From Candidatus Saccharimonadota bacterium (GTDB taxonomy: Bacteria; Patescibacteriota; Saccharimonadia; Saccharimonadales; Saccharimonadaceae), in contig JAGAEN010000005.1 of NCBI GenBank assembly GCA_017613135.1, forward strand, positions 1-49,782: DNA of 49,782 nt, in the 5' to 3' direction. The position numbers and the translations under genes were made by a program. The first letter of the stretch is position 1. Every line of letters begins with the position of its first letter. Below are positions 8,193-48,953 of the stretch, piece by piece. The notes under the pieces were generated by a model. That model was not told where the DNA came from. It was given only the letters and a program-made list of their open reading frames with translations, and did no database searches.

Positions 8193-8296
8193 ATTAGAGA
8201 TTAAAAGGCGCCAGATTGGTGTTTTCTTTGTGCGAAGCGCGTCTACTCGACGAGCGAGCACGAAAAAACGCCGAGATGGCGCCTTTTAACTCTAAT
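8193..8296. repeat. Palindromic element PE-5 abutting the tRNA-Gln 3' end
   Basis: A long hairpin. The outer arms (8193-8213 and 8277-8296) pair over 20 bp with one bulged A and include the perfect 13-mer TTAAAAGGCGCCA. A second stem (GGTGTTTTCTTTGTGC against GCACGAAAAAACGCC) continues inward. On the minus strand the right arm starts at the A of the tRNA's encoded CCA, so the element follows the tRNA directly and may end or trim its transcript. Confidence 0.7.
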
Positions 8297-25772: not shown

Positions 25773-26378
25773 ATGCTTCCCAAGGCTCTTCAAAGTGTCA
25801 CGACGGCGCTAGGTTTACTACCTGGTGTAGGTCCAAAAACAGCAGAAAGGTATGCTTACTTCCTTTTTCGTTCCGATAAAAGAATTGCCGAAGAAATTGC
25901 CGAGGCAGTGGCGGGACTTCACGATAAGGTAAAATCTTGCCCGGTAACTTTCGCTTTGATTGATGCGGAGGAAGAAGTTTCGCCTTTTTATGCCGATGAT
26001 GCGCGTGACAAGAAGACGGTCCTGGTGGTGGAAGAGCCTCTCGATATTTATGCCATCGAGGCGACGCACGGATATAAGGGGACTTATCACGTGTTGGGCG
26101 GAGCGATTTCGCCAATTGATGGAATTACGCCAGACCAGCTACATATTAAGGAGTTGGTCGAGCGAATTAAAATAGATGAAGTTGCTGAGGTGATTATTGC
26201 GACGAACCCTTCGGTAGAAGGGGAATCGACGGCGCTACTTCTAGAAAAAGTCTTGCGCGAGGCAAAACCTGAACTTAAACTCACGCGCCTAGCGCGTGGA
26301 TTACCACTGGGGGTAGATTTATCTTATGCCGACCAAATCACTTTGACCGCGGCACTTGAAAACAGAACAGATTTATAG
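25773..26378 (+). CDS. recR: Recombination protein RecR with degenerate zinc finger
   Basis: 201 aa. Helix-hairpin-helix LLPGVGPKTAERYAYFLF, TOPRIM domain with VVEEPLDIYAIEATHGYKGTYHVLGGAISPIDG and the C-terminal Walker-like ARGLPLGVDLSYADQITL. The CxxC...CxxC zinc finger is reduced to SCPVTFALIDAEEEVSPFYADDARD, with one cysteine of four. RecR loads RecA at gaps with RecO or RecF. The zinc finger is structural in studied RecR proteins, so this is an unusual form. Confidence 0.93.
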   Translation: MLPKALQSVTTALGLLPGVGPKTAERYAYFLFRSDKRIAEEIAEAVAGLHDKVKSCPVTFALIDAEEEVSPFYADDARDKKTVLVVEEPLDIYAIEATHGYKGTYHVLGGAISPIDGITPDQLHIKELVERIKIDEVAEVIIATNPSVEGESTALLLEKVLREAKPELKLTRLARGLPLGVDLSYADQITLTAALENRTDL

Positions 26379-26382
26379 GCAA

Positions 26383-26498
26383 AGCATCAGAATTGCCTCT
26401 TTCAAGGAGCATGTTTGGCGACGGGCCAAACACGGAGCGACCGAGCCCCGTGACGACGGGAGCGAGGGAGCGTTCCGGGAAAGAGGTGTTCTGATGCT
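26383..26498. repeat. Palindromic element PE-1, copy 1 (intergenic, between convergent genes)
   Basis: Core of 75 bp (26404-26478) starting GGAGCATGTTTGGCGACGGG. Arms: AGCATCAGAA-ttg-CCTCTTTC on the left (26383-26403), GAAAGAGG-tg-TTCTGATGCT on the right (26479-26498), 18 bp paired. It fills almost the whole gap between the recR stop and the stop of the minus-strand synthetase gene, and may serve as a two-way terminator. The core is open in the same frame that is translated in copies 2 and 3. Confidence 0.9.
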
Positions 26499-26501
26499 CT
26501 A

Positions 26502-28232
26502 TTAATAATCTTCCAACGCTTTGAAGTCGACTTTAGCGAGTTTGGTCTTGGGGAGCTCTGGGATGAAGCGGATTTCGCGAGGAATTTCATATTTGGCGAG
26601 ATATTTTTTGTAAATATTCATTAGCTCTTTTTTGGTGGCGCGCTCAGAGGCTTCGGGCTTCAAGACAGCAAAGACGACGACTTTTTCGCCACGAAGTTTG
26701 TCTTCGCGGCCAACTACAGCACAGCTTACTACGTTTTTAGATTTTAGGGTAACGTCTTCGATATTGGCCGGGTAAATATTGTAACCGTTTGAAATAATCA
26801 TTCGTTTTAGGCGCGAACGGAAGTGAATTACGCCACGCTCATCGGCGTAACCAATGTCGCCAGTACGGAGATATTTTTTGCCACCGACTGTAATAAAGGC
26901 TTCTTCGGTTTCTTTAGGCTTATTGAGATAGCCCTTCATCACGGAAAGACCACGGACGATGATTTCGCCATCTTCACCGAGTTTGGCAGGTTTGTTGGTC
27001 TTCAAGTCCAATATCACTACTTCGTTATCTGGGATAGGATAACCAATAGAATCTGGTTCTTCAGCAACACTTCTAGGCGAGAAAATAAAGCCGCCAGAGG
27101 CCTCGGTAAGGCCGTAGCCATTTTCAATTAGGGCTTTGGATCCGTGAGCTTTCAGAAAATCATTGATTTTCTCTTTGCTTGACATACTAATCATATCACC
27201 ACCGGAAACTACGAATTTGACGTGCTTCAAACCATCTTTTTTGAATTTAATTTTGGTGAGATAATCAAAGACCGTCGGGACACCAACTAAAATATCAACT
27301 TTGTATTTAGTGATGTATTGTTTGAACTTCTTAGGATTAAACTGGGGAATTAAGAAGGTGCGTGCGCCGAAGTAAAGTGGCATATGAATACAACAGCCAA
27401 GACCAAAAGCGTGGAAGTTTGGGAGAAACGCCATAAAGGAAAACTCCGGCTTAAATAACTCGGGAACAAGGTATTTGGCACCGAGTGCTTGAGCATTGAA
27501 GTTGAGATTTGAGAGAATAATACCTTTGGGCTTGCCGGTGGTACCACCAGAATACATAATTACGGCGTCATCCTTAGCATTTACTCTGGCGTGCGGATTA
27601 CCGATAAATTTATTGGCTTTGTTTAAGAATTTATCCCAGGTAATCACGTGCTGAGATTTTTTGACGTGATTTTTGCGACCTTTGGTGAGTTTATAAATCA
27701 CGCGGACGATGAAATCCATCGAACGGGTAGGTGAAACTACTACCACGTGTTCAACGTTGGTATTCTTAATAATGGCCTCAACCTTAGGGTAGCTAACATC
27801 CACGCATAGCAAAATTTTGGAATTGGTCTGGATGAGATAATCTTCGATTTCTTTTTCGGAAGACAAGGGGTGGACCATATTGGCTACTGCACCAATTTCG
27901 TTTACGGCGTAAAAGGCGTAGATAGCCTCTGGGGTATTTGGCATACAAATTGTGATGATTTCGCCTTTTTCAGCGCCGAGACTTTTTAATGCGGCGGCAA
28001 CACGATTGATTTTTTTAATTAAATCTTTATAAATCACTTGGGTATCAAAGAATTCCAAAGCGACATTGTGTGGCCACTTACAGGAAGCCTCATAAACTGC
28101 ATCGTACAGACCGCCGTCAAAGTATTGAATATCTTTTGGCAAGTGATCAATGTAGCCATATTTGGCGCGTTCCAGGCGCATATCAATTTTACGTAAAGTA
28201 TTTTTGATTTTGTTATACATAAATTCGAGCAT
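26502..28232 (-). CDS. AMP-dependent (long-chain) acyl-CoA synthetase/ligase
   Basis: 576 aa. ANL superfamily: P-loop YSGGTTGKPKG (A3), VVSGGDMIS, NGYGLTEASGG (A5), EIIVRGLSVMKGYLNKPKET, RTGDIGYADERGVIHFRSRLKRMIISNGYNIYP (A7-A8) and catalytic Lys in KTKLAKVDFK at the end. It activates a carboxylic acid, probably a fatty acid, to acyl-AMP and then CoA ester. With cdsA and pgsA next to it, use of scavenged host fatty acids for phospholipids is likely (inference). TGGTAAAAT is 6 nt before the start on the minus strand, so it is leaderless and divergent from cdsA. Confidence 0.9.
   Translation of the reverse strand: MLEFMYNKIKNTLRKIDMRLERAKYGYIDHLPKDIQYFDGGLYDAVYEASCKWPHNVALEFFDTQVIYKDLIKKINRVAAALKSLGAEKGEIITICMPNTPEAIYAFYAVNEIGAVANMVHPLSSEKEIEDYLIQTNSKILLCVDVSYPKVEAIIKNTNVEHVVVVSPTRSMDFIVRVIYKLTKGRKNHVKKSQHVITWDKFLNKANKFIGNPHARVNAKDDAVIMYSGGTTGKPKGIILSNLNFNAQALGAKYLVPELFKPEFSFMAFLPNFHAFGLGCCIHMPLYFGARTFLIPQFNPKKFKQYITKYKVDILVGVPTVFDYLTKIKFKKDGLKHVKFVVSGGDMISMSSKEKINDFLKAHGSKALIENGYGLTEASGGFIFSPRSVAEEPDSIGYPIPDNEVVILDLKTNKPAKLGEDGEIIVRGLSVMKGYLNKPKETEEAFITVGGKKYLRTGDIGYADERGVIHFRSRLKRMIISNGYNIYPANIEDVTLKSKNVVSCAVVGREDKLRGEKVVVFAVLKPEASERATKKELMNIYKKYLAKYEIPREIRFIPELPKTKLAKVDFKALEDY

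Positions 28233-33990: not shown

Positions 33991-34004
<14 letters not shown>
33441..34004 (+). CDS. queH: Epoxyqueuosine reductase QueH
   Basis: 187 aa. QueH (DUF208) hallmark cysteines: MHTCCAPCS near the start and YCGCIF near the end, with WYNPNIHPYIEY, RCxxCYKKRL-type RCVNYCYKKRL and TTLLISPYQKHD. It reduces epoxyqueuosine to queuosine in tRNA, the last step. Leaderless start. Overlaps queA by 14 nt. Confidence 0.95.
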
Positions 34005-36251
<2,247 letters not shown>

Positions 36252-46321: not shown

Positions 46322-48139
46322 ATGACTTTAACTACGGACAAAATTCGGAACGTGGCGATTATCGCGCACGTCGATCATGGCAAAACTACGCTTGTAGACG
46401 GGCTTTTGAAGCAGTCGCATACTTTTCGTGATAACCAAGCGGAAATGTCACAGACTCTTATTATGGATTCGATGGACCAGGAGCACGAGCGCGGAATTAC
46501 GATTACGGCGAAGCAAACTTGTGTTTACTATAATGGTTATAAAATTAACATTATTGACACGCCTGGGCACGCGGATTTTTCGGGAGAAGTGGAACGGACA
46601 CTGAATATGGCGGATGGGGTTTTATTAATTGTTGACGCACAAGAAGGACCGATGCCACAAACGAAGTTTGTGCTTCAGAAGGCTCTCGATCTTAAATTAA
46701 AGCCAGTAGTGGTGATTAATAAAATTGATAAACCTGCGGCGCGGATTGAAGAAGTTTTAAGTGAAGTAGAAAGTTTATTCCTAGAACTTGCTACGGACGA
46801 ATCACAACTTAACTATCCGGTTTATTATGCGATTGCCCGGGAAGGTAAAGCCGGTAAGACTACCGAGCTCGATGATGATTTACACGTTATTTTTGAAGCA
46901 ATTATTAATGATATTCCAGCGCCGTCGGTGGATGCAGATTCAGAAAGCGCGCAACTTCTGGTTGCAGCACTCGCTTCGGACAATTATCTTGGCAAGTATT
47001 GTATCGGCAAAATCTTCCGTGGGAAATTGAAGAAAAACCAGAGTGTAAAAGTATTACATAACAATACAGTCAAAAACTGTAAGATTGATAATTTATTTAT
47101 TTATAAAGGGCTCGGTAAGGAAGAAGTGACTGAAGCGATTGCGGGGGATATCGTGGCAATGACGGGAGTGTCGGAAGCAAATATCGGCGATACGATTGCG
47201 ACAGGTGATAACCCGGAGGCTTTGCCAACGATTGAACTTGAAGCGCCGACTTTGTCGATTTATATTGGGCCAAATACTTCACCGCTCAAAGGGCGTGAAG
47301 GGGAGTTTACCACTTCTCGGCAAATTGCGGAAAGACTTGAAAAAGAACTTGAGACTAACATTGCGCTTAAAATTCAGCCGGATGGGCTGGGTTATAAAGT
47401 ATCGGGGCGCGGGGAATTACACTTGTCGGTACTAATTGAAACGATGCGACGTGAAGGCTACGAGCTAGAGGCTGGGCGGCCGGAAGTAGTGTATCGTGAA
47501 ATTGATGGCGTGAAATCTGAGCCGATTGAATCTTTGACTGTGGAAGTGGCACCAGAATTCGTGGGTGCAGTGTCGCAAGAGTTGGGGGTTCGAAAAGCGG
47601 AGCTTAAATCGCAAGAAATGACTACAACCGGCACCACTAGATTTGTATATGAAATCTCGACGGCGGCTCTTATTGGGCTTCGCAATAATCTACTTACCGC
47701 GACTAAGGGTACCGTAATTATGTCGTCGATTCCGTCTGGATATCGCCCAGCAGAAGGTCGCTACAAACCAGAGCGAAACGGAGCTCTCGTAGCGTTTGAA
47801 GATGGCGTGTCGACGGCATATGCGCTCGACGCGGCACAAGCGCGAGGAATTTTGTTTATTCCGCCACAAGTCCCAGTGTACCAAGGGATGATTGTGGGGT
47901 TATCAAACAAGAAAGATGACCTTGATATTAATATTTGTCGTGAAAAACAACTTACCAATATGCGGACGCACGCTTCGGATGGCGCAATACAACTCACGCC
48001 GTATACACAACTCTCCTTGGAACAATGTTTGGACTTTCTACTTGATGACGAGCTACTTGAAGTGACGCCAAAATCTTTGCGACTTCGCAAGCGCCAACTT
48101 GACCCGATTAAAAGGAAGCGAGAGAATCGTGTTAATTGA
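46322..48139 (+). CDS. typA: Ribosome-associated GTPase TypA/BipA
   Basis: 605 aa, full length. G1 [16 protein letters not shown]2 [10 protein letters not shown]3 [17 protein letters not shown]4 NKIDKP; EF-G-like domains III and V and the BipA-specific C-terminal domain ([45 protein letters not shown]). Assists 50S assembly and stress adaptation. Leaderless start. Confidence 0.97.
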
Positions 48140-48953
48140 TACGCATTGTCATCTACACGACCGGCAGTTCTTTACCGAAGAACAGGCTGAAGAGATGTTA
48201 AAGCGAGCGCGAGATAAGGGCGTAGAGCGAATAATATGTATCGGCACGGATCCGAAAGATTCACTAGTGGCACGCGATTTTGCTGAGAAACATGAGAATG
48301 TGTACTGGACTTATGGCATTCACCCAGAGGAGACGACGGGGCGAGAAGAATGCCCTTTCTCGGAGCATGTTTGGCGACAGGCCAAACGCGGAGCGACCGA
48401 GCCCCGTAACGACGGGCGCGAGCTTGCGTTCCGAGAAGGGGTTTCTTCTTGCCCTATTGCCATTGGTGAGATTGGGTTGGATTACCACTCTGAAGGTTAT
48501 GACCGTGAAGCTCAGATTCGGCTGTTTGAAGAAATGCTTCAACTCGCGGTGGATAATGATTTGCCGGTTTCGTTCCATGTCAGGGATGCGTTTCCGGATT
48601 TCTTTGCTGTGGTGAGCAATTTCCCGGCAGTGCGAGGATGCGTGCATAGTTTTACTGATAGCAAAAAAACCTTACGGAAAATTCTTGAAACCACAGATTT
48701 TTATGTGGGAGTTAACGGCCTCGCGACTTATTCAACTTTACCGACGCCACCACTTGAAAGAGTTTTACTGGAAACAGATGCGCCATTCTTGACACCAGCG
48801 CCTTTTCGTGGTATAATTAATGAACCAGGGTATATCTATGAGATTGCCCAGTGGCTAAGCACAAAATTAGGTGTTGAATTTGAAATTATAGAGAAGGAAA
48901 CGACCAAAAATGCAGAAAGATTGTTCAATTTTCCCGATTCCAAGCTTCGCTAA
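48129..48953 (+). CDS. tatD: TatD family metal-dependent deoxyribonuclease with palindromic insertion
   Basis: 274 aa from GTG 48129, which overlaps the typA end. Metal ligands: [36 protein letters not shown] and LLETDAPFLTP. Acts as a 3'-5' DNase or in quality control. Residues about 71-109, between YGIHPEE and IAIGEIG, are encoded by element PE-1 copy 3 and replace the usual short helix. The catalytic barrel is otherwise complete. Confidence 0.92.
   Translation: MLIDTHCHLHDRQFFTEEQAEEMLKRARDKGVERIICIGTDPKDSLVARDFAEKHENVYWTYGIHPEETTGREECPFSEHVWRQAKRGATEPRNDGRELAFREGVSSCPIAIGEIGLDYHSEGYDREAQIRLFEEMLQLAVDNDLPVSFHVRDAFPDFFAVVSNFPAVRGCVHSFTDSKKTLRKILETTDFYVGVNGLATYSTLPTPPLERVLLETDAPFLTPAPFRGIINEPGYIYEIAQWLSTKLGVEFEIIEKETTKNAERLFNFPDSKLR
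48339..48454. repeat. Palindromic element PE-1, copy 3 (inside tatD)
   Basis: Core 48360-48434 (75 bp). Arms: GGGCGAGAAGAA-tg-CCCTTTC on the left, GAAGGG-gt-TTCTTCTTGCCC on the right, with one G-T pair and one bulge. Same frame as copy 2 (GAG-CAT-GTT-TGG), giving EHVWRQAKRGATEPRNDG. The core differs from copy 1 at few positions, mainly near its 3' end. Confidence 0.9.

Follow-up and report, generated by a model that had tools for sequence, protein, structure and literature searches.

Palindromic elements with a shared core and site-specific complementary arms in conserved genes of one Saccharibacteria genus

How can three hairpins in one stretch of DNA have a common core and, at the same time, outer arms that differ from copy to copy and pair with their own partner? 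The window, by which we mean the whole stretch of 49,782 nt that was analysed (contig C4 of the 729-kb source genome, G000), contains three such units of 87 nt, designated PE-1, at 26398-26484, 34324-34410 and 48354-48440. An earlier sequence-only reading had suggested that an inverted copy of one flank may be made during insertion, giving an inverted target duplication. The features on which the argument depends are as follows.

26383..26498, forward strand: PE-1 copy 1, whole hairpin with arms, intergenic between recR and an AMP-binding enzyme gene
26383..26392, forward strand: outer left arm of copy 1, AGCATCAGAA, 100% complementary to 26489-26498
26489..26498, forward strand: outer right arm of copy 1, TTCTGATGCT, partner of 26383..26392
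26404..26478, forward strand: conserved 75-nt core of copy 1, three-way junction
34309..34425, forward strand: PE-1 copy 2 with arms, in frame in queA
33991..35064, forward strand: queA, host of copy 2 (PF02547, E 6e-110)
48339..48454, forward strand: PE-1 copy 3 with arms, in frame in tatD
48099..48953, forward strand: tatD, host of copy 3 (PF01026, E 9e-58)
25773..26378, forward strand: recR, upstream neighbour of copy 1
26502..28232, reverse strand: AMP-binding enzyme gene, convergent neighbour of copy 1

The basic description given by the sequence-only reading is borne out. The distance between CTTTC and GAAAG or GAAGG is exactly 75 bp in all three copies, and each outer arm is complementary solely to its own partner: all 10 positions pair in copy 1, all 11 in copy 2 (GTGATTAATAA/TTATTAATCAC), and 11 of 12, plus one G·T, in copy 3 (GGGCGAGAAGAA/TTCTTCTTGCCC). 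Folded as single-stranded DNA and compared with dinucleotide shuffles, copies 1, 2 and 3 scored z = -7.2, -5.8 and -6.3, with 0 of 200 shuffles folding as well as the window hairpin. Copy 1 fills the 123-nt gap (26379-26501) between recR and the convergent gene. No Rfam family matched at PE-1 at the gathering threshold, and a terminator role was rejected, there being no terminator-like site at the hairpin and just one intergenic copy. Two other stretches of the window have a related appearance: a 25-nt inverted repeat (8201-8289, 84% complementary, 39-nt loop) near a tRNA gene, and an in-frame, GC-rich, partly palindromic segment (35599-35680) within tgt (35058-36251), which resembles an element of a different family. 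The ends GGTCCTGCC...TCACCCG found in obgE of L249 and L250 are similar to this tgt segment.

The source genome has about 14 PE-1 matches by BLAST and up to 18 copies by a structural model. Among the 100 genomes searched, BLAST detected PE-1 in 37 of 59 genomes of the same genus and in none of 40 relatives from other genera. Of 174 genomes of the genus, 153 contain a looser structural family recovered by a covariance model built from 45 copies; in a class-wide sample (n = 295), the only matches beyond the genus were weakly scoring ones in ten genomes, all from other genera of its family. Records of the genus in which the element occurs are labelled Candidatus Saccharibacteria, and most of them come from the gut of goats and sheep. 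PE-1 elements measure about 116-123 nt with their arms and form a family found mostly in frame, in conserved genes, in one Saccharibacteria genus. Other insertions occur in the same genes. A second palindromic family, with a core containing GAGCGCGGCAGCGCGAG or its complement (L082, L087, L111, L123, L140, L142, L143 and L145), occupies the same argS, queA and tatD loops as PE-1 in other species, and its arms are likewise site-specific and complementary. In queA of L191, KALSRERSENDAFLPPK lies at a second site in the gene and is apparently a PE-1 with its middle deleted, and valS of the source genome (L060, contig C7) has a second insert, PSENREVESSRVPESTGRRPDSTTRFLPGAQQSASERSLSI, of unassigned family.

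The consensus fold of PE-1 is a three-way junction closed by the long site-specific stem. Inside this stem comes a tandem G·A, followed by a GGAGC/GUUCC helix with a G·U pair that is kept in 63 of 66 copies; one of the two hairpins of the junction has a variable, covarying sequence, and the other is broken by two additional tandem G·A motifs. Since the first 6 nt at both ends of the 87-nt unit covary too, the part conserved in sequence amounts to about 75 nt. The conserved G12·U76 pair and the tandem G·A motifs speak for some function of the folded core that depends on the strand, a point against the reading preferred below.

We consider it reasonably probable that PE-1 copies are small palindromic mobile elements, similar to those of Rickettsia, which are translated as a loop of the host protein and in which the arms are kept by copying and the core by spread or conversion. 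According to this explanation, the arms would either come with the element or overlap sequence of the host, and replication of the hairpin would copy one arm onto the other through template switching, as in quasi-palindrome correction. Recent spread or gene conversion would keep the core uniform, and conversion would not be able to reach the non-homologous arms. The insert would probably be read as a loop of about 29 extra residues.

Let us consider the arms first. Stems are at least 17 bp long in all 68 close copies (range 17-40 pairs, median 21), and arm identity is 0.73 at orthologous sites across species versus 0.46 between sites. The assertion that outer arms differ completely is true of the window copies, but it does not extend to the larger sample, in which about 20 of the 68 copies, in many genes, have in common an arm close to CGCGAGGAATACCC. 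The remaining arms show a weak consensus from position -1 to about -16, gone beyond -17. Arms conserved between copies, named in advance as evidence against an inverted target duplication, were therefore found in part. Most simply, the element would have brought about 16 nt of each arm with it, and these would then have diverged separately at each site. A sequence in obgE of L257, VYRLKGEEYPRSLIADL, resembles a left-arm remnant with no core.

Compensatory changes in the arms were counted, as had been suggested. Between same-site copies of different species, there are 278 two-sided differences that keep Watson-Crick pairing versus 67 one-sided ones (G·T 30, A·C 23, other 14), as counted in an alignment that favours Watson-Crick pairs and with related sequences taken separately. 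When each site is counted once, two or more Watson-Crick types are present in 97 of 311 stem columns, and the one-sided states are G·T 12, A·C 11 and other 8. G·T and A·C are near equal on either strand. The share of transversions is alike in two-sided (63 of 278) and one-sided (14 of 67) changes, from which it appears that no intermediate was filtered out.

One alternative is that selection keeps the stem, in other words, that the folded element is functional, as mRNA or as single-stranded DNA needed for mobility, and that mutations in one arm are compensated singly. The strong covariation of the stems, the conservation of the unpaired tandem G·A motifs and of the G·U pair, and the + orientation of 80% of gene-borne copies could all be accommodated in this way. 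However, selection on folded RNA would strongly favour G·U intermediates. G·T and A·C occur as intermediates about equally often, which makes selection on an RNA stem an improbable main cause, and we rejected RNA-level selection on the stem as unsupported by these counts. The transversion-type double changes, as common as the one-sided ones, also speak against it. In addition, mRNA cannot be the sole functional form because copies in both orientations keep the motifs of the element strand. We therefore regard selection as an unlikely explanation of the paired arms; with G·T and A·C nearly equal, a process that does not see the RNA is indicated.

Copying of arm from arm during replication, with occasional inversion of the loop, predicts the two-sided changes and two further observations. 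At core positions 7-8, the tandem GA is present either as GA (62 copies) or as the exact fix TC (4 copies), with no single-base intermediates. In tatD, the left arm of L041 and the right arm of L196 are reverse complements of each other at 20 of 20 positions, corresponding to an inversion of the whole hairpin. Template switching, which creates and maintains stems and inverts loops in RNA genes (PMC8794818), is the likeliest mechanism of arm upkeep. Snap-back or template-switch copying, originally put forward as the way of insertion, is better placed at a later stage: it fits upkeep after insertion, when arms change together with no G·U bias, and is not supported for the insertion itself. Counting against it, double changes are not clustered along the stem above chance (63 adjacent versus a null of 59.6 +/- 5.7), and we discarded clustering as a proof of multi-base template switches.

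The uniformity of the core could be the result of recent transposition or gene conversion. In core identity, an effect of the genome and an effect of the locus are both seen, and they are similar in size. In genome JAFRCN, the identical 75-nt inner core is found in a P-type ATPase gene, argS and queA (L178, L179 and L181) with three different arms. The window tatD copy has a chimeric helix, with GCGACC on the left and GCTTGC on the right, whereas its sister copies in the source genome have GCAAGC/GCTTGC, which suggests conversion between copies. It is tempting to speculate further that the three-way-junction core with its tandem G·A is the single-stranded substrate of a hypothetical recombinase, so that cores would be docked in the tips of resident hairpins and exchanged between sites. 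We find this quite unlikely; if true, arms would stay with the locus and cores would move as cassettes, all inside essential genes. No agent of mobility was found, and two candidate partners were rejected. The Y1 transposase (PF01797, TnpA-REP) was found in 2 of 60 genus genomes, being absent from the other 58, the source genome and the copy-rich ones among them. Reverse transcriptase proteins (RVT_1) are present in 40 of 60, but they do not track PE-1 copies and are missing in the copy-rich G000, G003 and G036.

Comparison of filled and empty sites bears directly on how the arms arrived, the empty sites being those of other species with about 75-90% protein identity, known from metagenome assemblies. 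In at least 11 relatives, recR and its neighbour abut or overlap and both arms are missing, so that the insert of about 123 nt includes both arms. At site 1 of obgE, the anchors are separated by 22 residues in strict empties and by 60 in filled sites; the gain of 38 codons (114 nt) is approximately the core plus both arms. In queA the distance is 32 residues in empties and 60-61 when filled, a gain of 28-29 codons, or the core alone, and the arm residues match host residues in the empties. Similarly, the gain at argS site A is 29 codons, again the core alone, with the arms at host positions. No direct target duplications are evident by eye at queA, argS, obgE or recR, where the empties come from other species. 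The recR junction of L207, L209, L214 and L218 contains other hairpins, the one in L214 having 25-bp perfect arms that run from the recR stop codon to the stop of the convergent gene.

The core-only gains at queA and argS might mean that the gene already has a hairpin and that the core is placed at its tip. The queA empties are in fact quasi-palindromic, all four lying at or above percentile 0.84 of their own locus, and convergent stop codons yield short palindromes at the recR junction. In contrast, empties of argS, tatD and obgE are not unusually palindromic (medians 0.30, 0.75 and 0.24), and arms are part of the gains at recR and obgE. Since queA alone fits, pre-existing target hairpins were rejected as a general rule, and we judge this explanation to be decidedly improbable. 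The sequence-only reading had stated that empty sites containing both arms would tell against its inverted duplication, and this was found partly, in queA.

An inverted target duplication, in which the insertion makes an inverted copy of one flank, was proposed because the arms are both site-specific and complementary. It could also accommodate argS, where the host flanks adjacent to the core are complementary in the filled site but not in the empties. The comparison suggested for it, in which one arm should be ancestral and the other new, produced a different picture: a core plus one new arm (about 34 codons) was seen at none of the recR, obgE, queA and argS sites. Instead, the empties of recR and obgE lack both arms, and queA and argS gain the core alone. 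As about 20 copies in unrelated genes have arms in common and the others a weak consensus, we now consider this origin of the arms very improbable.

As for the location, 88 of the 89 extracted copies are inside ORFs of at least 230 aa and in frame, the sole exception being the flagged intergenic copy. Host genes, named from protein sequences and confirmed by Pfam for five of them, include queA, tatD, argS (three sites), obgE (two sites), tsaD, valS, ileS, miaA, mnmA, a cysteine desulfurase gene, trmD and polA; Pfam domains are recognised across the inserts. The cores use frames 0 and 1 on both strands. Frame 2 of the + strand has a stop in 65 of 66 cores and is used by none of the 66, which are not independent, as same-site copies share descent, although the pattern spans more than 20 sites. 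This avoidance of the closed frame is strong, if indirect, evidence that the insert is probably translated in the host protein. The AlphaFold model of QueA is poor (mean pLDDT 63.6); its residues 111-136, between two strands, have pLDDT below 50, so that it is consistent with a loop insert while being weak evidence for one. That the core is instead removed after transcription or skipped by the ribosome would suit precise 29-codon inserts in essential genes and has a parallel in the bypassed palindromic elements of Magnusiomyces mitochondria (mentioned in PMC6649704), but a removed insert needs no open frame and the sole closed one is never used, leaving this idea with almost no credence.

The preferred reading of PE-1, that of translated mobile palindromes, places it next to several known systems. 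Rickettsia palindromic elements form several families per genome, and no transposase is known for them. These elements and their Wolbachia equivalents are described as 105-146 bp long, with a long stem-loop and terminal inverted repeats, lying in frame in conserved protein genes and also in intergenic regions (PMC2229807). PE-1 is alike in being a hairpin with terminal inverted repeats and a stem of 17-40 bp, inserted in frame in conserved protein-coding genes, and different in its phylum and in its three-way-junction core with tandem G·A. PE-1 works like the Rickettsia elements and matches them in architecture, a likeness of kind. One difference concerns the arms, which in PE-1 change together and stay complementary, whereas the repeats of Rickettsia elements are reported to lose identity over time (PMC6649704). 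Coding palindromes in Nematomorpha mitochondria are similar in having inverted repeats within coding genes, both arms coding, and their identity is actively maintained, with template switching or repeat conversion proposed as the cause (PMC6649704). Their arms, however, encode conserved protein, are longer and perfect, and have no shared core, whereas PE-1 has a shared mobile core at its tip. Stems maintained by template switching likewise show two-sided changes, loop inversion and restoration in one step (PMC8794818). They belong to RNA genes, whereas PE-1 copies are in-frame mobile elements in which clustered multi-base events do not exceed chance. YPAL/RU-2 of Yersinia, with YPAL targets at or beside dyad symmetry, and other bacterial MITEs are, like PE-1, small non-autonomous repeats, some of them in frame (PMC2229807). 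Shared terminal repeats and direct target duplications, which characterise most bacterial MITEs, are not evident for PE-1. REP/RAYT elements are short structured palindromes as well; unlike them, PE-1 lives in genomes that mostly have no Y1 transposase. A search of a limited body of literature on Saccharibacteria with palindromic in-frame inserts returned nothing relevant, and an earlier description may exist.

The best-known cases of in-frame palindromic elements in proteins are those of Rickettsia and Wolbachia. The presence of PE-1 in many essential genes of a Candidate Phyla Radiation genus suggests that elements of this kind colonise reduced genomes, or are tolerated there, time and again. 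With so many copies at orthologous sites, there is also a natural test of what keeps stems paired, selection or the copying of DNA from arm to arm, and coding hairpins that lack a G·U bias provide direct evidence on this question. Covariation by itself is consequently no proof of a functional RNA.
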